Below are positions 17,347-56,571 of a stretch of 64,000 nt of DNA, piece after piece. The notes below the pieces were generated by a model. It ran no database searches. It saw only the letters and a list, made by a program, of their open reading frames with translations, and was not told the origin of the DNA. This DNA comes from Daejeonella sp. Its GTDB lineage: Bacteria > Bacteroidota > Bacteroidia > Sphingobacteriales > Sphingobacteriaceae. The translations under genes and the position numbers were made by a program. The stretch spans positions 62,001 through 126,000 of the forward strand of contig NZ_JAUXXZ010000076.1 in NCBI RefSeq assembly GCF_030684675.1, written 5' to 3'. Each line of letters opens with the position of its first letter. The stretch's first letter is position 1.

Positions 17347-19449
17347 ATGAAGACTAATTTCAATGGCCGCTCAGCCATATTATTATTGCCATTTATTTTA
17401 TTAGCAGCAAACAGCATGGCTCAGCGCTATCCCGGGCCTTTAAGTCCGGAAGAGTCAATGAAGAAACTTAATGTGGCAAAAGGTTATAAAGTTTCCTTGT
17501 TTGCATCAGAGCCGCATGTTTTTGACCCGGTATCGCTAGAATTTGACGAGCAGGGAAATGCATATGTGATTGAAATGCCTGATTATCCTTATGAGGTTGA
17601 ACCCGGAAAAGGCCATGGCCGCATCAGGATATTGAAAGATACCGACGGTGATGGTAAGATCGATCAATCGATCATTTTTGCCGAAAATGTAACCGAAGCA
17701 ACCAGTATGTTGCCATGGAAAGGCGGACTTATTGTGACTGCTGCACCCAATATTCTTTATCTGAAGGATACCAATGGGGATGGAAAATCAGACACCCGGG
17801 AAATTTTGTTTTCTGGATTTTTTCAGAATAATTCTGAGGCTCAGGTTACCAGTCTGAAATTAGGAATTGATAATTGGATTTACGCAAATAATCGTGGTCA
17901 GAGTGGTAAAGTAATTCACAGTAAGTCTCCTGATGCAGCACCTGTTGAGGTTAGGGGAGCTGATTTTCGTTTCAGATTAGACCGTGATGTTTTCGAACTC
18001 GAGACTGGTCCGGGACAGTTTGGACAAACAATTGACGACTGGGGGCATCGTTTCTTTACTGAAAATTCAATTCACTTACAGCAGGCAGTTATTCCCTGGA
18101 GATATACTCACCGGCATGCATTCATGCCAAGCAGCAAGTTTAATGTAACTATTACAGATCATGAAGAGATCATGTTTCAGGAAATTCCGCCGGCCTATTG
18201 GAGATCTGAAAGGAGTGCCCGTAGAAACAGGATGTTCAAAGAAGCAAATCTTAATCGGATAGAATGGGCAGAAGATCACTTTACTGGAGCATCAGGAGGT
18301 ACTATTTATAATGGTGATGCCCTGCCACAGGAATTTTATGGTAATATTTTTACAACCGATGTGTCAGGAAGCCTGATTCACAGAGATATTTTAAGTCCAA
18401 GTGAAACAAGTCCGGTATTGGTTGCAAAACGTGCTGAATCCGAAAAAAACAGAGAATTTATCTACTCCACTGATACCTGGTTCCGTCCGGTAACCTTTTC
18501 TATTGGCCCTGACGGATATTTGTATATTTTGGATTATTACAGACAGCATATTGAAACACCGGTTTCAATTCCTGATGATCTTAAAGCCGAAATGGATTTT
18601 ATGGCAGGCAGTGATATGGGCAGGATTTATCGCCTTTTGCCTGAAAATGGTACTTATCAGGGAGTAAAAGTAGACCTGAAGAATGCTACCGGACTTCAGT
18701 TGGTAGATTATCTGTCGCACAAAAATGGCTGGTATCGCAGTAATGCGCAGCGTTTGCTACTTGAACGCCAGGATAAAACTGTTATTCCTGCTGTGATTTC
18801 ATTGTTTTCAAACAGCCAGGACGCAAGAACAAGACTACATGCACTTTATGTACTTGAAGGTTTGAATGCATTAACTGAAAAAATCGTTAAAAAATCATTG
18901 CTTGATTCTGAACCTGGAGTTCGGGAAAATGGCATCATACTTGCAGAAAGATATCCTAAAACCAGTAAACTGTTAATTCCGATGGTTAATGATCCATCTA
19001 AGCGCGTTGCTTTGCAAGCTGCACTTAGTCTGGGACAGTTTAAAGGAAAAAAAGTGATTGCTGCATTGGCTGAAGTGATCAGGAATTACGGACAGAATGA
19101 TTGGTTCAGGAGTGCAGTTATAAGCTCAGAGGCCGGTTCTTCAGTTGAAATTTTAAATTCACTAATACAGGATAATGCATTTTTCGGCAAAGAAGAAAGC
19201 TGGAAACTTAGTTTTATTCAGGATTTGTCAAACATTATTGGAGCCAGGTATAATAAGGAACAGTTTTCAGCGTATTTGAATACGCTAGCTCTTGAGTCAT
19301 TATCTGCTGCAAATGTGCAGCAAGCAGCCTTAAAGGGGCTTAAGGCAGGACTGAATAAAAACGAGTCCACAAAAGAACTTGCAGCGCAATTAAATGCGGG
19401 CTCAATTGAGGAAGTGAAAGAAGGATTTCAACTGCTTAGAAAAAACTAA
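17347..19449 (+). CDS. PVC-type beta-propeller dehydrogenase-like protein with HEAT repeats
   Basis: A 700-aa exported protein (signal to about residue 25, ANSMAQ). The first 420 residues form a sorbosone-dehydrogenase-like six-blade propeller, the fold often annotated as putative membrane-bound dehydrogenase in Planctomycetes and Bacteroidota. It has calcium-type loops KDTDGDGKIDQ and KDTNGDGKSD, plus SIGPDGYLYILDYYRQHIET. The C-terminal 250 residues are helical HEAT-like repeats. The usual C-terminal cytochrome c (CxxCH) is absent. A HiPIP gene follows 41 bases later and could be the electron acceptor. Relatives include PQQ-dependent sugar dehydrogenases; PQQ use here is inference. Operator site 2 lies upstream. 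Confidence 0.82.
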   Translation: MKTNFNGRSAILLLPFILLAANSMAQRYPGPLSPEESMKKLNVAKGYKVSLFASEPHVFDPVSLEFDEQGNAYVIEMPDYPYEVEPGKGHGRIRILKDTDGDGKIDQSIIFAENVTEATSMLPWKGGLIVTAAPNILYLKDTNGDGKSDTREILFSGFFQNNSEAQVTSLKLGIDNWIYANNRGQSGKVIHSKSPDAAPVEVRGADFRFRLDRDVFELETGPGQFGQTIDDWGHRFFTENSIHLQQAVIPWRYTHRHAFMPSSKFNVTITDHEEIMFQEIPPAYWRSERSARRNRMFKEANLNRIEWAEDHFTGASGGTIYNGDALPQEFYGNIFTTDVSGSLIHRDILSPSETSPVLVAKRAESEKNREFIYSTDTWFRPVTFSIGPDGYLYILDYYRQHIETPVSIPDDLKAEMDFMAGSDMGRIYRLLPENGTYQGVKVDLKNATGLQLVDYLSHKNGWYRSNAQRLLLERQDKTVIPAVISLFSNSQDARTRLHALYVLEGLNALTEKIVKKSLLDSEPGVRENGIILAERYPKTSKLLIPMVNDPSKRVALQAALSLGQFKGKKVIAALAEVIRNYGQNDWFRSAVISSEAGSSVEILNSLIQDNAFFGKEESWKLSFIQDLSNIIGARYNKEQFSAYLNTLALESLSAANVQQAALKGLKAGLNKNESTKELAAQLNAGSIEEVKEGFQLLRKN

Positions 19450-19490
19450 AGATACTCTGAGATAAAAATTGCCCGGTTAAAATTAGAAAG

Positions 19491-19874
19491 ATGGAAAAGC
19501 AAAAATATTCAAGAAGAAGGTTCATAGGTAAGTATATTCTTGCAGGTTCAGTTGCATTAGGAACGGGAATATTGATTGCTGGCAGTTCAGCTAACAGTAT
19601 GGCTAAGGAAGAGGATTCAGAACAACAGCCAAAAGCTCCCCAGCCTGCACAAAAAAATCCTTGTGACGATCTTACCGGGGTTAGTGCAGATGAAATTGCA
19701 AAACGTAAAAAGCTCGCATACGTAAACAAAACGCCAATTCCAGATAGCCATTGCAGTAATTGCGGACTTTACCTTCCGCCGGCTAAAGACAAGCCTTGCG
19801 GTGGTTGTATGTTGTTTAAAGGGCCTGTCCGCGCCGAAGGATATTGTGCATATTGGGCACCGATTAATAATTAG
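19491..19874 (+). CDS. High-potential iron-sulfur protein (HiPIP), Tat-exported
   Basis: A 127-aa protein with a twin-arginine signal (SRRRFIGKYILAG) and a short acidic/proline linker. It then has a compact HiPIP domain whose cluster ligands read HCSNCGLY (Cys88, Cys91), CMLFKG (Cys106) and EGYCAYW (Cys119), the family pattern for one [4Fe-4S] cluster. An extra Cys103 and Cys58 are present. HiPIPs are one-electron carriers in the periplasm; Tat export with the cluster already inserted is established for them. It is cotranscribed with the propeller protein (41-base gap), so it is its probable electron acceptor. Confidence 0.88.
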   Translation: MEKQKYSRRRFIGKYILAGSVALGTGILIAGSSANSMAKEEDSEQQPKAPQPAQKNPCDDLTGVSADEIAKRKKLAYVNKTPIPDSHCSNCGLYLPPAKDKPCGGCMLFKGPVRAEGYCAYWAPINN

Positions 19875-20041: not shown

Positions 20042-21244
20042 ATGAAAGCTCTGATCTGCATTTTTTTCTTATCTCTGGGTTATTCCAGTTTTGCTCAGAA
20101 AGGGCAACACATTCAATATTCAGGGTCTTCGAATCTTCCGGGAGTTTCGGATGCAGTAATTGTTGATGATGTACCGCTTGTTCATACCAACCAATTTCTG
20201 CCTTTGGATAAATCCGGTAATATTGTTGGATCCGGTGATATCAATGCACAGATCAATCAGATTTTCCTGAATATTTCTTCTGCTTTGAAAATGGCTGGTT
20301 CAAAACCAGATCAGATCGTTAAACTTAATATCTATATCAGGAATTCAAGCCTGATCTCTGCAGTTCGGGAACAAATCAATAAACGGTTTAAATCAGGTAA
20401 AAATCCTGCCTTAAGTTTCGTTGCCGGGGATCTTGCTCATTCTGATGCATTGATTTCAATGGACGCTATTGCTGTTTCAGCTAAAAGCAAAATGGAAGGT
20501 GTTAATTATTTGATGCCCGCGAATTTATCCTCGGTTCAGGGTGTCGCCCGGGCTGCAATTTTACCTGCGGGTCCGGTGGTTTATGTTTCAGGTCAGGCTG
20601 TGAAAGGTGAACTAGCTGAAGCAACTCGAGGTACCTTAGAGCAACTTCTGGCTACACTGGTCTCGTTGGGTTTGGATAAAAAAGATATTGTTCAGATTAA
20701 ATCCTTTATAAGGCCAATGTCTGACCTGAAAGTAGTAGAGGAGGAGTTCACTAAATTCTTTAAAGGTGGTACTATTCCACCAATGGTTAATGTTGAATGG
20801 ACGAGCAAAGATCCGGTAATCGAAATAGAACTGATTGCTTCATCTCCAAATACAGGATCTAAATCAAACCAACAGCTTGATTTTATTACTCCTTCGGGAA
20901 TGACAGCTTCACCTGTTTATTGTAAGGTTACCCGGATTAATTATGGTCAAAAGGTCTATATATCAGGATTATACGGACAAGTAACTGGCAATGCAGATTC
21001 TGAACTGGCATCTATCTTCAATCTAATGGGTACCATATTGAAAAATACGGGCAGTGATTTCAGGCATCTTGTCAAAGCAACCTATTATGTTGGCAATGAT
21101 GTTCATAGTGCGAAATTAAATGAAATCCGCCCTAAATATTATGACCCGCTTCGTCCGCCAGCGGCCTCAAAGGCTATGGTTAAAGAAGTTGGCAAGCCTC
21201 AGGCCGGAGTTTCTATTGATATGATCGGGGTTGTGATCAGGTAG
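20042..21244 (+). CDS. Exported triple RidA-like protein
   Basis: A 400-aa protein with a Sec signal (about residues 1-19, YSSFAQ) and three tandem YjgF/YER057c/UK114 (RidA) domains at about 35-146, 165-267 and 285-400. Each shows the pattern of a helix with an SLGLDKKDIVQIKSFIR-like strand. RidA enzymes work as homotrimers, so one chain may fold as a complete trimer. The catalytic Arg of RidA imine deaminases (in P-A-R-S) is replaced in all three: Leu124, Met248 and Ala375. It should therefore not be called an imine deaminase without test; other Rid subfamilies also lack this Arg. It sits between the HiPIP gene (167-base gap) and an exported PLP aminotransferase gene. Confidence 0.82.
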   Translation: MKALICIFFLSLGYSSFAQKGQHIQYSGSSNLPGVSDAVIVDDVPLVHTNQFLPLDKSGNIVGSGDINAQINQIFLNISSALKMAGSKPDQIVKLNIYIRNSSLISAVREQINKRFKSGKNPALSFVAGDLAHSDALISMDAIAVSAKSKMEGVNYLMPANLSSVQGVARAAILPAGPVVYVSGQAVKGELAEATRGTLEQLLATLVSLGLDKKDIVQIKSFIRPMSDLKVVEEEFTKFFKGGTIPPMVNVEWTSKDPVIEIELIASSPNTGSKSNQQLDFITPSGMTASPVYCKVTRINYGQKVYISGLYGQVTGNADSELASIFNLMGTILKNTGSDFRHLVKATYYVGNDVHSAKLNEIRPKYYDPLRPPAASKAMVKEVGKPQAGVSIDMIGVVIR

Positions 21245-21338: not shown

Positions 21339-21493
21339 TTAATGTACACTTATATCTTTTCTGCCTGACGGACTGGTATCAAAGCAGGAGGATTCCGGAC
21401 AGGTATTATGTGGACCGCTCTTGTAATTTTAAACATAAATTATAGCTGAATAACCTTATATCAAGGCCAAAATTTGAATTGAAAAAAATAGCC

Positions 21494-22882
21494 ATGAAAA
21501 ATAAAAACACTGATTCATCGAGACGCAAGTTTTTAAAGCAGAGCTCTCTGGCTGGAGTGGGCACTGTGCTGACGATGGGTTTATCACCTTCTCTGCTAGC
21601 CGGGGATTTAAACAGCGCAGCAAGACCGGCGATTTTAGGCGGCCCATCAGCGTGGGATAAAGCCAAATGGGTCAAATGGCCTATCTGGATACCCGAAACG
21701 GATGAAAAGCGTGTTCTAGAAGTGCTCAGAAGCGGAGTTTGGTCGCGTGCTGGTGTAGTTAATGAGTTTGAAGCAGCCTGGGCTAATGCCAATGGAGCTA
21801 AACGTTGTTTGGTTGTAAACAACGGTACCAATGCTTTGATCGTCGCATTAAATCAACTAGACATAAAAGGTGGTGATGAAGTGCTTGTTCCGCCTTATAC
21901 CTTTATATCGACTGTTCAGGCTATTCTTATGAATGGGGCTATGCCAGTGTTTGTGGACATCGATCCGGAAACATATCAGATTGATCCTGCAAAAATAGAA
22001 GCAAAGATAACACCGCGAACAAAAGCCATTTTGCCCGTCCATATTTTAGGAATGCCGGCAGATATGCCGAGAATAATGGAAATTGCTAAAAAGCACAATT
22101 TGTTTGTGGTTGAAGATGCCTGTCAGGCCCCATTAACTGAAGTCAATCATCAAAAGGTAGGTACAATTGGTAATGCGGGTTGTTTCAGTTTTCAAAACTC
22201 AAAAAATATTCCGATTGGTGAAGGAGGTGCAATTGTGAGTAATGATGTTGCCTTTATGGATCGCTGCGTTTCTTTTCAGAATCTCGGCTTGCCTTTTGGT
22301 ACCGCGGTTGGAACTTTTAATGCTGGGAGCATAAGGATTGGTACCAAGGTTCGTATTACTGAATATCAGGCTGCTATTGGTTTAGCACAGTTACAAAGGC
22401 TGGATGCACAAACTACTGTGCGTGAAGAGAATGCGAAGTATTTGAAATCAAAGATTCAGGATATTCCTGGAATAGTACCTTATAAATTATATGATAGTGC
22501 AACCAGGGTTTCATTCCATTTGTTTTCATTCAGATATAAGAAAGAGGACTTTAAAGGTTTATCCAGAAATGCATTTTTGCAAGCTTTGCGTGCCGAGGGA
22601 GTGCCTTGCTCTGGAGGTTATACGCCATTAAACAAACAGGAATTTTTGAAGGAAGCTTTTGCCACAAAGAATTTTAAAAGGATGTATCACAAGGATATGC
22701 TCGATTATGATAAATATATGGAGCGAAATCAGTGCCCTGAGAATGATCTTTTATGTACAGAAATGGTATGGTTCACTCAGAATCTGCTTCTTGGCAGTCG
22801 GGAAGATATGGATTCAATTGCTTATGCAATCAGCAAGATACAGGCTAGTGCAGAAACAGTAAAAAAATCATTGGAAAAATAA
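21494..22882 (+). CDS. Tat-exported DegT/DnrJ/EryC1-type PLP aminotransferase (copy 1)
   Basis: A 462-aa fold-type I PLP enzyme of the sugar aminotransferase/dehydratase (DegT) family with an N-terminal twin-arginine signal (SRRKFLKQSSLAGVG). Visible motifs are NNGTNALIVALNQLDI (phosphate site), FVDIDPETYQIDP, VVEDACQAP and FSFQNSKNIPIGEGGA, whose Lys237 is the Schiff-base lysine. Members usually act in the cytoplasm on nucleotide keto-sugars; an exported one must act on a free or glycan-bound sugar or cyclitol. The ATG at 21494 is preferred over a TTG at 21479. It resembles copy 2 (55219-56571) throughout. A propeller-like protein gene follows. Confidence 0.85.
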   Translation: MKNKNTDSSRRKFLKQSSLAGVGTVLTMGLSPSLLAGDLNSAARPAILGGPSAWDKAKWVKWPIWIPETDEKRVLEVLRSGVWSRAGVVNEFEAAWANANGAKRCLVVNNGTNALIVALNQLDIKGGDEVLVPPYTFISTVQAILMNGAMPVFVDIDPETYQIDPAKIEAKITPRTKAILPVHILGMPADMPRIMEIAKKHNLFVVEDACQAPLTEVNHQKVGTIGNAGCFSFQNSKNIPIGEGGAIVSNDVAFMDRCVSFQNLGLPFGTAVGTFNAGSIRIGTKVRITEYQAAIGLAQLQRLDAQTTVREENAKYLKSKIQDIPGIVPYKLYDSATRVSFHLFSFRYKKEDFKGLSRNAFLQALRAEGVPCSGGYTPLNKQEFLKEAFATKNFKRMYHKDMLDYDKYMERNQCPENDLLCTEMVWFTQNLLLGSREDMDSIAYAISKIQASAETVKKSLEK

Positions 22883-22944: not shown

Positions 22945-24303
22945 ATGGACAAATTAGATGGAATTGTTGAGTTGAATCAATTAAAGACTGATACGTATAT
23001 AAATGGAAACGATGAAGAGAATCATCTGACCGCAACTACTTATAATTCGGGATTTCAAGAAGCCCACGATACTTATAATGCATTATCAGCTGCCAGTGAT
23101 GGTAAAATTTATTATGTATTATCTTCAGACCAGATCCATGTAGGAGGTAAAATGTATCTCTATGACCCCAGGACTGATAAGACAGAATTTCTGGGAGATC
23201 TGACTGAAATATGTGGTGAAAAAGATCAGATGTTCGTCCCTCAGGGTAAAAGTCATGCAAGGTTCTTTGAAAGGAATGGCAAACTTTACTTCTCAACTCA
23301 TGTGGGTTATTATGAACTCATCAATGGAATGGATCGGCTTCCGGTTAATCCTCCTTCCGGATATAAATTATACCCGGGTGGACGAATTCTTTCTTATGAT
23401 ATGCAAAGCCGAAAGTTCGAAAACCTTGCTTTGGTTCCCAATGGAGAAGGTATGGTTTCGATGACAATGGATCGGGACCGTGGGCAAATTTTTGGTATAT
23501 CCTGGCCCAAAGGAAATTTTATTCATTATGATATCGATAAAAAGGAATTAAAAGACCTGGGCCGGACGTCAGGAAATGGTGAAGGAGGGGAGCCAGGTGA
23601 CGATTTCCGTTCATTATGCCGCTCTCTTGTGGTAGATCCTTCTGACGGGACTGTGCATTTTTCTACTTCAGAGGGTGATATATTTAGCTATAATCCTGAA
23701 GAGGGCCGAATCAATAAACTTGAAGATATAAACCTCAGGCTTGATTATTTTGGTAAATACGATCCAACCAGACCTGGTAGTATGGGTTACAACTGGAGGA
23801 AAATTTTCTGGTATAATCTGGAGGGTTTAGCTTACGGAGTTCATGGAAATTCCGGTTATTTATTTCGGTTCGATCCTAAAAAATCTAAAATTGAACTTGT
23901 CAGACGCATTACTTCAGAGCCTTCAGCTAAAAGCGGTATGTTCGATCAGTTTAGTTATGGTTACCTTGGTTTTCAACTTGGACCTGATGGGAAGACTATT
24001 TATTACCTGACAGGCGGTCCGGTTTATGTTGATGGTAAGCGTGTTGCGGGTCAGTCTGAAATTGCTAAAGGTGCGGCAAAGGGCCTTGAAAATCTGCATT
24101 TAATCACGTATAACATACCGGAAGGTAAATATCAGGATCATGGTCCTATCTTTTATCCTAATGGAGATCGTCCTTTATACGTAAATTCCATTGCCGTTGG
24201 CAAGGGAGGTGAAGTTTATGCGCTAGCCAGGATTACAGAAAATGGAATTACACGAACCGACCTCATAAAAATTGCTAATCCTTTTAAAAGGTCTATACTG
24301 TAA
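22945..24303 (+). CDS. Beta-propeller-like protein, no signal peptide
   Basis: A 452-aa protein of repeated beta-strand blades with recurring Asp-rich turns (KMYLYDPRTDKTEFLG, RILSYDMQSRKFENLA, GDIFSYNPEEGRINKLE, YLFRFDPKKSKIELV). This spacing is that of a seven-blade propeller such as SMP-30, oligogalacturonate lyase or NHL types, but no catalytic signature can be fixed. Unlike nearly all its neighbours, it starts with MDKLDGIVELNQ and has no export signal, so it would be cytoplasmic, or its true start has been missed. It follows the DegT gene by 62 bases and is probably in the same operon. Confidence 0.65.
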   Translation: MDKLDGIVELNQLKTDTYINGNDEENHLTATTYNSGFQEAHDTYNALSAASDGKIYYVLSSDQIHVGGKMYLYDPRTDKTEFLGDLTEICGEKDQMFVPQGKSHARFFERNGKLYFSTHVGYYELINGMDRLPVNPPSGYKLYPGGRILSYDMQSRKFENLALVPNGEGMVSMTMDRDRGQIFGISWPKGNFIHYDIDKKELKDLGRTSGNGEGGEPGDDFRSLCRSLVVDPSDGTVHFSTSEGDIFSYNPEEGRINKLEDINLRLDYFGKYDPTRPGSMGYNWRKIFWYNLEGLAYGVHGNSGYLFRFDPKKSKIELVRRITSEPSAKSGMFDQFSYGYLGFQLGPDGKTIYYLTGGPVYVDGKRVAGQSEIAKGAAKGLENLHLITYNIPEGKYQDHGPIFYPNGDRPLYVNSIAVGKGGEVYALARITENGITRTDLIKIANPFKRSIL

Positions 24304-41531: not shown

Positions 41532-42683
41532 ATGAAGCCTGTTAAAAAGATATTTTCCTTGATGCTGGCTCTTCTATCAATTGTACAACTGTATGCACAG
41601 AATAATACAGATACGGTCAGAACCATAAAAATTGATGTACTTGTTGGTCTTCAATTCGATCTGGTGAGGTTTAATGTGAGGCCGGGTGAAAAATTGAATC
41701 TGATTTTCAGTAACAGTGATGACATGAGTCATAATCTTCTCATCACAAAACCCGGAACAAGACTGGAAGTTGTAAATGAGGCCCTTAAATTAGGTCAAAA
41801 AGGTCCAGAAATGGACTATATTCCAAATTCCTTATCCGTTTTATGGTCAATCCCGGTTGTTAATCCCAATCAATTCAGAACACTAAGTTTTACAGCACCT
41901 AAGCAGGAGGGAGTTTATCCTTATGTGTGTACAATCCCGGGGCATGGCTTTATCATGTTTGGTGCAATGTATGTTAATGCAGATGGTCGAATGCCTGAAT
42001 TAAAAGATGATCCTAATATCCCTCCAAATCGAAAAGCAGAGGATAATACTATGTTAAGTAATCAGCATAGTAATCATCCCTTAAATGGAGAACCTCAGCC
42101 GGTAAAAATCAAACCTTTACATCCTTACACCCCTGTATCGCCATATATTTACCGGGTTTTTATCTATGGGGCAAGTCCTGCAGCAATTGCAGTTAGTCTC
42201 CCTGGTGATTTATCCTATTGCTGGGATGCTGGTACCTGTAAGTTACGTTTTGCATGGAGCGGTGGCTTCCTGGATAATTCTGAATTATGGAAAGGTAAGG
42301 GCGATGTATCGGCGAAAGTTGTAGGAAATGTGTTTTTTAGGGATAAAACTCAATTTCCATTCTCATTTAGTGCCGATAACAAAGTGCCAAAATTAGATTA
42401 CAAAGGATATAAACTCATTAACCGCTATCCTGAATTTCATTACACACTAAACGGAATTGATGTTTATGAACTGATTCTACCTAAAGCTGATGGCAAAGGT
42501 CTGAACAGGACCTTCAGGATCCCTAATGTTAAAAGCACTGTCTGGTTTAATACCGATCAATCTGATGGAGTTAAATATGAAGCTTTAAAAGGATCATGGG
42601 AAGGGAATAGATTGAAATTAACATCAAAAGAGGCCAGAAGATTCAGCATTATTATGAGTGTTAAGGAGGGGGGAATATTATGA
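41532..42683 (+). CDS. Cupredoxin (azurin/plastocyanin-like) protein with C-terminal beta domain
   Basis: A 383-aa secreted protein (signal to about residue 23, LYAQ). Residues about 30-148 are a type-1 copper domain: ligands His67 (DDMSHNLLI), Cys133, His138 and Met142 in CTIPGHGFIM. The C-terminal 200 residues form a second beta-rich domain (VSLPGDLSYCWDAGTCKLRF, AWSGGFLDNSELW), a companion seen on c-type cytochromes and propeller proteins in glycan loci. The stop overlaps the start of the propeller gene by 4 bases (ATGA), so the two are translated together. It is the probable electron acceptor of that propeller, as HiPIP is for 17347. Confidence 0.83.
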   Translation: MKPVKKIFSLMLALLSIVQLYAQNNTDTVRTIKIDVLVGLQFDLVRFNVRPGEKLNLIFSNSDDMSHNLLITKPGTRLEVVNEALKLGQKGPEMDYIPNSLSVLWSIPVVNPNQFRTLSFTAPKQEGVYPYVCTIPGHGFIMFGAMYVNADGRMPELKDDPNIPPNRKAEDNTMLSNQHSNHPLNGEPQPVKIKPLHPYTPVSPYIYRVFIYGASPAAIAVSLPGDLSYCWDAGTCKLRFAWSGGFLDNSELWKGKGDVSAKVVGNVFFRDKTQFPFSFSADNKVPKLDYKGYKLINRYPEFHYTLNGIDVYELILPKADGKGLNRTFRIPNVKSTVWFNTDQSDGVKYEALKGSWEGNRLKLTSKEARRFSIIMSVKEGGIL

Positions 42684-44182
42684 AATATAAAGTGATTTCC
42701 ATTTACATGACAGGAATGTTGCTTTTTACTTGCCTTGAATCCATTATTGCCCAGATAACAAATGATTCTTACAGGGTTGAAACCATCAAAATGCCTGATG
42801 GATTAACAAGTGAGACCGGTGCTGTTGAATTTTTGCCAGACGGCCGACTTGTTGCATCTTTTACCAGAGGTGAGGTAATGATCTACAATACCTTAACAAG
42901 GGAATGGAAATTATTCGCTGAAGGCCTCCATGATCCATTAGGGATTCTGGTAATCAGTAATTCTGAATTATTAATAATGCAACGTCCCGAATTGACAAGA
43001 GTAAAGGATACTGATGGTGATGGAACTGCTGATCTGTATGAAAAAGTTACGGATGATTTCGGGCTTTCGGGTAATTACCATGAATTCAATTACGGTCCGG
43101 TTAAGGATAAAGACGGTAATCTGTTCATCGCCCTGAATTCTTCTTCAGGCGGAGGAAACATCAGGTCAGAAGTTCGTGGTCAGATAAATCCCCTCGGCCG
43201 TGAGAGTGGCAGCAAAGGGCAGATGTTTTCGAATTTACCTTATCGTGGGTGGATGATGAAGTTAGGCAAGGATGGTAAATTGCAACCTTTTGCCTCTGGT
43301 TTCCGTTCTCCAAATGGAATAGGATTCGATCTTGAAGGTAATTTGTTTGCTACCGATAATCAGGGCGATTGGGTTGGTACCAGTCCCTTGCATCATGTAC
43401 AGGAAGGGAAGTTCTATGGTCACCCCGGAAGTCTGGTTTGGCAAAAGGGATGGAATAGAGGTAATCCATTTTTGTTACCAATACCGGTTTTGGATAGTAT
43501 GCGAACCAGAGGAGCCGTCTTATTTCCGCATGGTATTATTGCAAACTCACCAACCCAGCCTGTCTGCGATAACACTGCAGGTAAATTTGGCCCTTTCTCG
43601 GGACAGTTGATCATCGGTGAGATGAATAAGGAAAGGATTGTTAGGGTAATGCTTGAGCGTGTTGGTGGTGAGTTACAGGGTGCATGTATTCCCTTTCTTG
43701 AAGGAAATGGTCTGCGAAAGGGGAATAACAGATTGGTATTTGCTCCGGATGGCAGTTTATGGATTGGTCAAAATTCTCACGGATGGCTCGGTGATCAGGG
43801 TATACAGCGGATCATTTTTACTGGCAAAACGCCTGCAGATATCTATAGTATGAATCTGACTGAAAAGGGCTTTGATCTGACCTTTACAGAGCCCCTGGAG
43901 GTATCGGCGGCTACAAATTCTGAAAATTTTAAATTCAGACACTACTATTATAAGTACCAAAGTAAATATGGTTCTGATCAGTTTGATATTCAAAATGTTC
44001 CTGTTACCGATATCAAAATTTCTAATGACCGTAAGAAAGTATCACTGACTCTGGCAACCCTAAAGTCCGGTTACGTTTATGAATTAAATTTGGGAGACAT
44101 TAAAACTTCAACAGGTAATTCGCTGAATAATAAACTGATATGTTATACCCTGAATAAATTGAAATCTTCCTCTATTAATTAA
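42680..44182 (+). CDS. Sorbosone-dehydrogenase-like beta-propeller
   Basis: A 500-aa exported propeller (signal to about residue 25, SIIAQ) related to the N-terminal part of the 17347 gene. Seen are EFLPDGRLVASFTRGEVMIY, the calcium-type loop VKDTDGDGTADLYE, FNYGPVKDKDGNLFIAL, GFRSPNGIGFDLEGNLFATD and PDGSLWIGQNSHGW. The C-terminal 120 residues are a beta sandwich. The clear SD (GGAGGGGGG) and 4-base overlap tie it to the cupredoxin gene. PQQ-dependent sugar oxidation is the family suggestion; no heme motif is present, so an outside electron carrier is required. Confidence 0.8.
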   Translation: MKYKVISIYMTGMLLFTCLESIIAQITNDSYRVETIKMPDGLTSETGAVEFLPDGRLVASFTRGEVMIYNTLTREWKLFAEGLHDPLGILVISNSELLIMQRPELTRVKDTDGDGTADLYEKVTDDFGLSGNYHEFNYGPVKDKDGNLFIALNSSSGGGNIRSEVRGQINPLGRESGSKGQMFSNLPYRGWMMKLGKDGKLQPFASGFRSPNGIGFDLEGNLFATDNQGDWVGTSPLHHVQEGKFYGHPGSLVWQKGWNRGNPFLLPIPVLDSMRTRGAVLFPHGIIANSPTQPVCDNTAGKFGPFSGQLIIGEMNKERIVRVMLERVGGELQGACIPFLEGNGLRKGNNRLVFAPDGSLWIGQNSHGWLGDQGIQRIIFTGKTPADIYSMNLTEKGFDLTFTEPLEVSAATNSENFKFRHYYYKYQSKYGSDQFDIQNVPVTDIKISNDRKKVSLTLATLKSGYVYELNLGDIKTSTGNSLNNKLICYTLNKLKSSSIN

Positions 44183-55218: not shown

Positions 55219-56571
55219 ATGAAATTCAATGACTTAAGCAGAAGGAATTTTATTACTGCAGTTACAGCCACTACTGTTGCAACTGCTTTTTCTAACGTGA
55301 TTCCTGCATTTGGAAATACCCCGCGTAGCCTCGGAAAATTGGCGATACATGGTGGAACACCGGTAAGAGTGAAGGTCTGGCCTAAATGGCCTGCAATGAT
55401 AGCCGATGAGAAACTAATTGAGTCGGTTGTTAAAACTACCAAAAGTGGTATCTGGAGCCGAATTCAATCGCCAACGGGAACCGTAGCAACATTTGAGAAG
55501 GAATATGCCCGTTTGATGGGTACTCAGCTTTGTATTGGAACAGGATCGGGAACTCAGGCCCTGGCGACTTCGGTTGAGGCCATGGATTTTGGACCTGGAG
55601 ATGAGATCATTACATCACCATACAGTGATTTTGGAACCGTTTCTGCCATTTTAACCAGCCGTGCTTTACCTGTATTGGTAGATCTTGACAGAGATTCATT
55701 TCAGCTTCATCCTGATGAGATAGAAAAGAAGATTAATAAGAACACGAAAGCCATTATTCCTGTTCACATCATGGGTATGCCCTGTAATATGGAACGTATT
55801 ATGGCTATTGCAAGGAAACATAACCTAAAGGTAATTGAGGACGCCTGTCAGGCAAACTTTGCAAAATATCAGGGTAAGCAATTGGGAACAATTGGTGATT
55901 TGGGTTGTTTCAGTTTTCAGGCAAGCAAGCAAATCTCCTGCGGAGAGGGTGGTGCTATTATTGGAAATGATGAAGTTTTGATGGACAGATGTTTCACCGT
56001 TCAGAATCATGGCACCAATCGAAAAGGGTTTAATGTGACAATAGGTCCTAAATACCGTATGAATGAATTCGAAGGAGCAGTGCTGATGGGGCAGATTGCC
56101 GGTGCCAGAGAGCGTTTTGAGAAACGTAATGCAAATGCAGCTTATCTGGATGCTAAGCTTAAGGGTTTTCCAGGACTGGTTCCTCAAAAAAAGTATCCGG
56201 GAACCGAAAGTTCCGGCTATTACAAATATGCAATGAGCTATCGGAAAGAGCATTTTAACAATGCCGACAGAAGTAAATTTCTAAAAGCCCTTTCTGCAGA
56301 AGGGATTAATCTGAGCCCATATATTGCCAGAGGTTTTCATGTTGAGCCATGGGTGGACGAAATTATCGGATTAAGAGAATACAAGGCATTGTATTCACCA
56401 GCCCGGCTTAAGCGCTATAAGGAAGAAATGCAAATGCCAATTTGTGATTTGGTCTGTAATGAAGAAATGGTAGTCCTAGAAGGAGTAGCATCTTTACTGG
56501 GTAGCACTCAGGATATGGATGATGTAATCAATGCGATCATGAAAGTTTATGAGAACAGAGATAAGCTATAA
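55219..56571 (+). CDS. Tat-exported DegT/DnrJ/EryC1-type PLP aminotransferase (copy 2)
   Basis: A 450-aa paralogue of 21494-22882 with a twin-arginine signal (SRRNFITAVTATTVATAFS). Motifs: GTGSGTQALATSVEAMDFGP, LVDLDRDSFQLHPDEI, VIEDACQANFAKYQGK and CFSFQASKQISCGEGGAI, in which Lys237 is the Schiff-base lysine, at the same number as in copy 1. It ends LGSTQDMDDVINAIMKVYEN. The first of three genes transcribed together with a Gfo/Idh oxidoreductase and a YdjM-like protein. A ketone made by the next gene could be the amino acceptor; this is inference. Confidence 0.85.
   Translation: MKFNDLSRRNFITAVTATTVATAFSNVIPAFGNTPRSLGKLAIHGGTPVRVKVWPKWPAMIADEKLIESVVKTTKSGIWSRIQSPTGTVATFEKEYARLMGTQLCIGTGSGTQALATSVEAMDFGPGDEIITSPYSDFGTVSAILTSRALPVLVDLDRDSFQLHPDEIEKKINKNTKAIIPVHIMGMPCNMERIMAIARKHNLKVIEDACQANFAKYQGKQLGTIGDLGCFSFQASKQISCGEGGAIIGNDEVLMDRCFTVQNHGTNRKGFNVTIGPKYRMNEFEGAVLMGQIAGARERFEKRNANAAYLDAKLKGFPGLVPQKKYPGTESSGYYKYAMSYRKEHFNNADRSKFLKALSAEGINLSPYIARGFHVEPWVDEIIGLREYKALYSPARLKRYKEEMQMPICDLVCNEEMVVLEGVASLLGSTQDMDDVINAIMKVYENRDKL

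Follow-up and report, generated by a model that had tools for sequence, protein, structure and literature searches.

RidA3, encoded in a Daejeonella genome, is predicted to be an exported protein in which three Rid domains follow one another in one chain, all three having lost the arginine on which RidA depends for catalysis. In most annotations, Rid proteins figure as imine deaminases of the cytoplasm. Since every one of these arginines is gone and since the constant partner of RidA3 is an exported redox-type pair, formed by a DUF7133 protein and a HiPIP iron-sulfur protein, RidA3 is probably a Rid trimer repurposed in extracellular sugar oxidation. More specifically, and with somewhat less than even confidence, we propose that it is an exported pseudo-trimeric Rid that has given up deamination and now serves the DUF7133-HiPIP pair as an accessory protein for the oxidised sugar product. 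In what follows, the window is the whole stretch of DNA that was analysed (64,000 nucleotides).

Three Rid domains and a lost arginine

The features of RidA3 in the window are the following.

20042-21244, + strand: RidA3, three-domain Rid protein of 400 aa, predicted to be exported (open ORF, Pfam, AF2 model, orthologues)
20042-20098, + strand: putative N-terminal signal, aa 1-19, ending in SSFAQ (sequence; conservation of A18/Q19 in 13 homologues)
20105-20491, + strand: Rid domain 1 (D1), aa 22-150, the most relaxed; the residue equivalent to Glu120 is S139
20411-20413, + strand: Leu124 codon, Arg105 position in D1
20492-20857, + strand: Rid domain 2 (D2), aa 151-272; SGQ and the Glu120 equivalent, E261, are kept
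20783-20785, + strand: Met248 codon, Arg105 position in D2
20870-21241, + strand: Rid domain 3 (D3), aa 277-400, with PAASKA, invariant across all homologues
21164-21166, + strand: Ala375 codon, Arg105 position in D3; Ala in 13/13 homologues

RidA3 is a member of the Rid (YjgF/YER057c/UK114) superfamily. Indeed, PF01042 (Ribonuc_L-PSP/YjgF) matches three stretches of the protein with 124 bits in total, for a cut-off of 27.3 (E 4.4e-36), in line with a previous sequence-only reading that had seen three RidA-type domains in one 400-aa chain. None of the NCBIfam Rid models exceeded its own cut-off on RidA3; TIGR00004 on the whole protein gave 90.8 bits, below its cut-off of 106.25. The same reading had proposed a Sec-type signal, and this agrees with the hydrophobic character of residues 1-19, which end in AQ, Q19 being invariant and A18 nearly so among 13 homologues. 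Export of RidA3 is thus suggested by its sequence.

The AF2 model, obtained with 13 sequences, consists of three alpha/beta repeats (mean pLDDT 84, pTM 0.87), residues 1-21 being of low confidence. All three Rid folds that the earlier reading expected are present in the prediction and none is missing. D1 (region 43-147) superposes on the solved structure of YabJ with a Z-score of 15.4 and an rmsd of 1.8 A over 102 residues. A neisserial YjgF protein matches the model with a Z-score of 15.0 over 116 residues, in a range spanning residues 22-400; this span gives a hint that the sheet of D3 may be completed by the N-terminal strand. A pseudo-trimer is the most likely packing of the three domains, but both this packing and the pocket between them are putative, superpositions of the full chain on concatenated Rid-fold proteins being poor (Foldseek TM 0.2-0.28, rmsd 17-20 A).

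We aligned the RidA3 homologues with two canonical triple Rids and with 14 single-domain Rids from the Daejeonella genome under study. Leu124, Met248 and Ala375 fall at the sites of the catalytic arginine, exactly as had been read from the sequence, and the loss extends to every homologue compared: Arg105 is missing from 39/39 domains of 13 homologues. The site is hydrophobic in D1, occupied by M/L/V/I/T in D2 and always by Ala in D3. Thirteen of the 14 single-domain Rids encoded in the same genome keep the arginine. The Glu120 equivalent has also gone from D1 and D3, and D2 is the only domain to retain both SGQ and this glutamate, which it does in 13/13 homologues; in the alignment used, the Tyr17 site of RidA is not conserved as Tyr. 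Other polar motifs are invariant in D2 and D3, where E263, W253 and PAASK join E261.

In RidA, Arg105 holds the ligand by its carboxylate (PMC4433059), and the Rid proteins tested so far need this residue (PMC4433059, PMC5619798). With the arginine lost in all domains, RidA3 is unlikely to act as a deaminase of imino acids; and as the arginine binds the imino-acid carboxylate, its loss would fit a substrate that has none.

A putative redox pair as the constant neighbour

Around RidA3, the window contains the following genes.

17347-19449, + strand: DUF7133/TIGR02604 protein, predicted PQQ-sugar-dehydrogenase-like beta-propeller followed by a HEAT solenoid, with a Sec-type signal and no CxxCH
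19491-19874, + strand: HiPIP iron-sulfur protein with a TAT-type signal; its gene is the constant neighbour on the 5' side of RidA3
21479-22882, + strand: DegT/DnrJ/EryC1 PLP aminotransferase-like enzyme with a TAT-type signal, likely ATG at 21494
22945-24303, + strand: Kelch-like propeller protein of the RidA3 locus

Contigs permitting, the order in Daejeonella is heparinase-like, DUF7133, HiPIP, RidA3, DegT, Kelch, SusC, SusD and DUF5017. The HiPIP gene lies directly 5' of RidA3 in 14 of the 15 RidA3 genomes, two other genera included, with DUF7133 upstream; the spacing between HiPIP and RidA3 in the window is 167 bp. DegT stands on the 3' side of RidA3 in 11/15; within Daejeonella it is adjacent too, and the grouping conserved outside this genus is DUF7133-HiPIP-RidA3 only. 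In one genome, G018, no DegT gene separates RidA3 from Kelch, and in another, G692, the DegT orthologue is on a separate contig and a DegT2 homologue adjoins RidA3 in divergent orientation. G805 carries two DUF7133-HiPIP pairs, one with RidA3 and the other, without it, with DegT and ceramidase-like, amidohydrolase and Kelch genes. Finally, RidA3 is orphaned in G092, whose DUF7133-HiPIP pair stands without it. The adjacency in 14/15 genomes for the redox pair against 11/15 for DegT, together with the split in G805, indicates that the redox pair and not the aminotransferase is the constant partner, a partnership for which all the evidence is gene order within one bacterial family. A promoter/terminator scan for operon boundaries in the RidA3 locus stayed at background level.

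DUF7133 and HiPIP form a constant gene pair in Sphingobacteriaceae (loci L084-L095 and window positions 17347-19874), HiPIP being present in 23/400 genomes. At 11 loci the pair occurs without RidA3, which is therefore not essential to it.

The model of DUF7133 comprises a propeller and a helical solenoid (pLDDT 86), and matches PQQ sugar dehydrogenases best (3a9g, with a Z-score of 25.0 and an rmsd of 3.2 A over 285 residues). Foldseek further matches it to an aldose sugar dehydrogenase and to pyranose dehydrogenase (PQQ domain), so that DUF7133 is predicted to have the propeller fold of soluble quinoprotein/aldose sugar dehydrogenases. As lactonase-type propellers come next, with Z-scores of about 21, the dehydrogenase activity of DUF7133 is presumed. 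The protein corresponds to TIGR02604, of PVC type, yet CxxCH is absent. The cysteines of HiPIP are invariant and nearly all copies have a twin-arginine motif; HiPIP may act in trans in place of the cytochrome c domain found in PVC-type proteins.

Altogether, we can propose the following role. RidA3 would reside in the periplasm (or at the surface) as a single chain whose domains pack as a pseudo-trimer. DUF7133, through its PQQ-sugar-dehydrogenase-fold propeller, would oxidise a sugar or amino-sugar derivative, and HiPIP would accept the electrons. RidA3 would then bind the oxidised product, or convert it, in the one interdomain pocket that is left, centred on D2 (SGQ, Glu261, PPxVxVEW) and D3 (PAASKA), D1 being mainly structural. 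We infer both the redox activity of DUF7133 and the action of RidA3 on its product; as a precedent, Rid proteins accelerate an imine-forming dehydrogenase in vitro (PMC5619798). With DUF7133-HiPIP as a defined context, the RidA3 family lets the function of the Rid fold be tested cleanly in the absence of the arginine and outside the cell. An uncharacterised propeller and iron-sulfur module of Bacteroidota sugar-catabolic loci also gains a link to an accessory protein, one amenable to deletion and assay.

The signals of the pair also bear on another possible role. The DUF7133 proteins linked to RidA3 form one clade (support 100/100). Judged by pattern only, their signals end in AQ and a lipobox-like Cys is absent (one poor match in 11), and this Cys is found in only 2/11 of the RidA3-linked HiPIPs; by the same pattern, the DUF7133 and HiPIP of RidA3-less pairs have it at 11/11 loci. 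A single clade together with the lost Cys suggests that the DUF7133 partner changed about when RidA3 joined, which speaks for the partnership of RidA3 with the pair. Alternatively, RidA3 could be a soluble non-catalytic scaffold or adaptor, joining DUF7133 and HiPIP in the periplasm once the membrane anchor of DUF7133 had been lost, which would also suit a protein devoid of the standard catalytic set and with a dN/dS (0.13-0.20) above those of DUF7133, HiPIP, DegT and Kelch. We consider this unlikely. The change of anchor and the gain of RidA3 map to one branch, so that their correlation comes down to one event and is a lead, not proof, the more so as the lipobox calls were made by pattern; and E261, E263, W253 and PAASK, invariant in D2 and D3, look like a ligand site.

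It also seems improbable that RidA3 still deaminates imines, if these are taken to be carboxylate-free imines of amino sugars, produced by the exported DegT or arising in the locus when amines are oxidised. This is a modified form of what the sequence-only reading had in mind when it pointed to an adjoining exported PLP aminotransferase. Such an enzyme is indeed present, as the DegT-type protein with its TAT-type signal at 21479-22882, and the specific link to it was not supported, since DegT flanks RidA3 in 11/15 genomes only and clusters of DegT, DUF7133 and HiPIP without RidA3 are common (L084, L087, L089 and L092). A spread of RidA3 without linked aminotransferases is partly borne out: copies with no adjacent DegT do occur, although a DegT-type enzyme is encoded somewhere in nearly every RidA3 genome (none was found in G018, which is 87% complete), and Daejeonella genomes without RidA3 also lack this DegT orthologue. 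Chemistry speaks against this reading as well, as PLP aminotransferases hydrolyse their ketimine while it is enzyme-bound and are not known to set an imine free. An amino sugar lacks the carboxylate that Arg105 binds (PMC4433059), but the Rid proteins tested so far all need the arginine (PMC4433059, PMC5619798). We thus retain the accessory role beside DUF7133-HiPIP as our working proposal.

Selection and distribution

The dN/dS of the whole RidA3 gene, 0.13-0.20, shows a selected protein and not a chance ORF. By domain, it amounts to 0.16-0.30 for D1, 0.08-0.14 for D2 and 0.08-0.10 for D3, and for the neighbours to 0.02-0.07 (DUF7133, DegT and Kelch; 0.02-0.04 for DegT alone) and 0.06-0.11 (HiPIP). 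From these sequence comparisons, RidA3 appears to be under purifying selection while evolving faster than its neighbours, the constraint being concentrated in D2 and D3. With orthologues at 43-90% identity, these ratios rule out a pseudogene. A decaying exported deaminase that persists through hitch-hiking with its catabolic locus is a very improbable reading of RidA3: three catalytic arginines have gone and D1 is relaxed (dN/dS up to 0.30), but the gene is intact in every copy not cut by contig ends across that range of identity, purifying selection and invariant motifs are seen, and it is present in three genera besides Daejeonella.

We found RidA3 in 12/20 Daejeonella genomes; the one under study is counted, and one of the 12 has it as fragments where contigs end. 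Three other genera of Sphingobacteriaceae carry it as well (G092, G805 and G692). Daejeonella genomes without RidA3 lack HiPIP and the DegT orthologue too; the locus is thus present or absent as a whole. Among 395 genomes spread over the phylum, no relative was detected besides the window's own genome (E 1e-25). Viral contigs contained none, and plasmids carried ordinary or 3x Rids only.

Known relatives and the wider locus

Triple Rid chains are not new as such. Tandem triple RidA proteins, for example EF_0115 of Enterococcus faecalis, were named 3x-RidA by Niehaus et al. 2015 and presumed to be covalent trimers (PMC4433059). Like RidA3, they have three Rid domains in a single chain of about 400 aa. 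Those seen here, on a Vibrio plasmid (L099, 2764-4158, + strand) and in the Sphingobacteriaceae genome G849 (L109, 1027-2256, - strand), have no evident signal and an arginine in all three domains, whereas RidA3 is Arg-less and predicted to be exported. Their histories differ as well: in the domain tree, the three domains of the Vibrio protein cluster together as expected of a recent triplication, whereas D1, D2 and D3 of RidA3 are anciently diverged and form three deep, well supported, separate clades, ruling out such an origin for RidA3. In the fold search, a pandoravirus YjgF-family protein of 387 aa matched the triple-Rid model over most of its length, and three-unit Rid chains may thus occur in giant viruses too.

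The imine deaminase RidA/YabJ shares its fold with each RidA3 domain, from which it differs by having Arg105 and by being neither triple nor exported. The absence of the catalytic Arg is common to RidA3 and to the Rid4-Rid7 subfamilies, with Trp in its place in Rid4 and Rid7 (PMC4433059). However, Rid4-Rid7 keep the Glu, and RidA3, with three domains, Leu/Met/Ala at the Arg site and the Glu in D2 only, falls outside them.

Cyanuric acid hydrolase/barbiturase (Toblerone fold) is, like RidA3, a single chain of three YjgF-type units, thought to be derived by their concatenation and endowed with new chemistry (PMC3758960). RidA3 had no Pfam match to this family, its homologue alignment contained no Ser-Lys dyad conserved in all three units (only one adjacent S376-K377), and its whole chain compares with Toblerone-fold proteins at TM 0.19-0.21 and an rmsd of about 20 A. 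Chorismatases of the FkbO/Hyg5 type, which have a Rid-like fold, were the top Foldseek matches along the whole chain (TM about 0.24); their model TIGR04444 gave 21.4 bits for a cut-off of 325. Neither Pfam nor NCBIfam thus gave family-level support to membership among the cyclic amide hydrolases or the chorismatases. It is conceivable, if doubtful, that RidA3 is a second, independent concatenated Rid/YjgF trimer with a new function, after cyanuric acid hydrolase, in this case an extracytoplasmic one dedicated to a quinoprotein-like sugar dehydrogenase and the HiPIP that carries its electrons.

By eye, a signal of the TAT, lipoprotein or Sec type can be made out in about 10/14 single-domain Rids of this genome (L004-L008, L100-L102), and all of these keep the catalytic arginine. 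Exported Rids therefore appear to be common in this lineage, and export in itself is ruled out as the novelty of RidA3. The sequence-only reading had called unfamiliar the union of export, triple fusion and lost arginine; its parts are known or common, triple fusions having been described (PMC4433059), but the combination, exported, triple, ancient and Arg-less, is new. Our literature search found nothing on exported Rid proteins, on DUF7133, or on 3x-RidA beyond Niehaus 2015.

The window further encodes SusC/SusD, CE15-like esterases, a 3-keto-disaccharide hydrolase, Gfo/Idh oxidoreductases and amidohydrolases; export signals are present in many of these proteins. By its gene content the RidA3 locus resembles one for extracytoplasmic keto-sugar catabolism. 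In the use of lactose, a DUF1080 hydrolase has been proposed to follow an oxidation step in the periplasm (PMC9007349). Two further genes lie downstream.

41532-42683, + strand: cupredoxin/DUF6797 protein
42680-44182, + strand: second DUF7133-type protein, paired with the cupredoxin

Together (41532-44182), they make up a propeller and electron-carrier pair parallel to DUF7133-HiPIP. In G805 (L045), a homologue of the cupredoxin/DUF6797 gene directly follows RidA3 on its 3' side, and a second DUF7133 comes next. Aminotransferases are unusual outside the cytoplasm; this one catabolic locus encodes two DegT/DnrJ/EryC1 PLP enzymes with TAT-type export signals (21479-22882 and 55219-56571), in which the PLP-lysine motif is kept.
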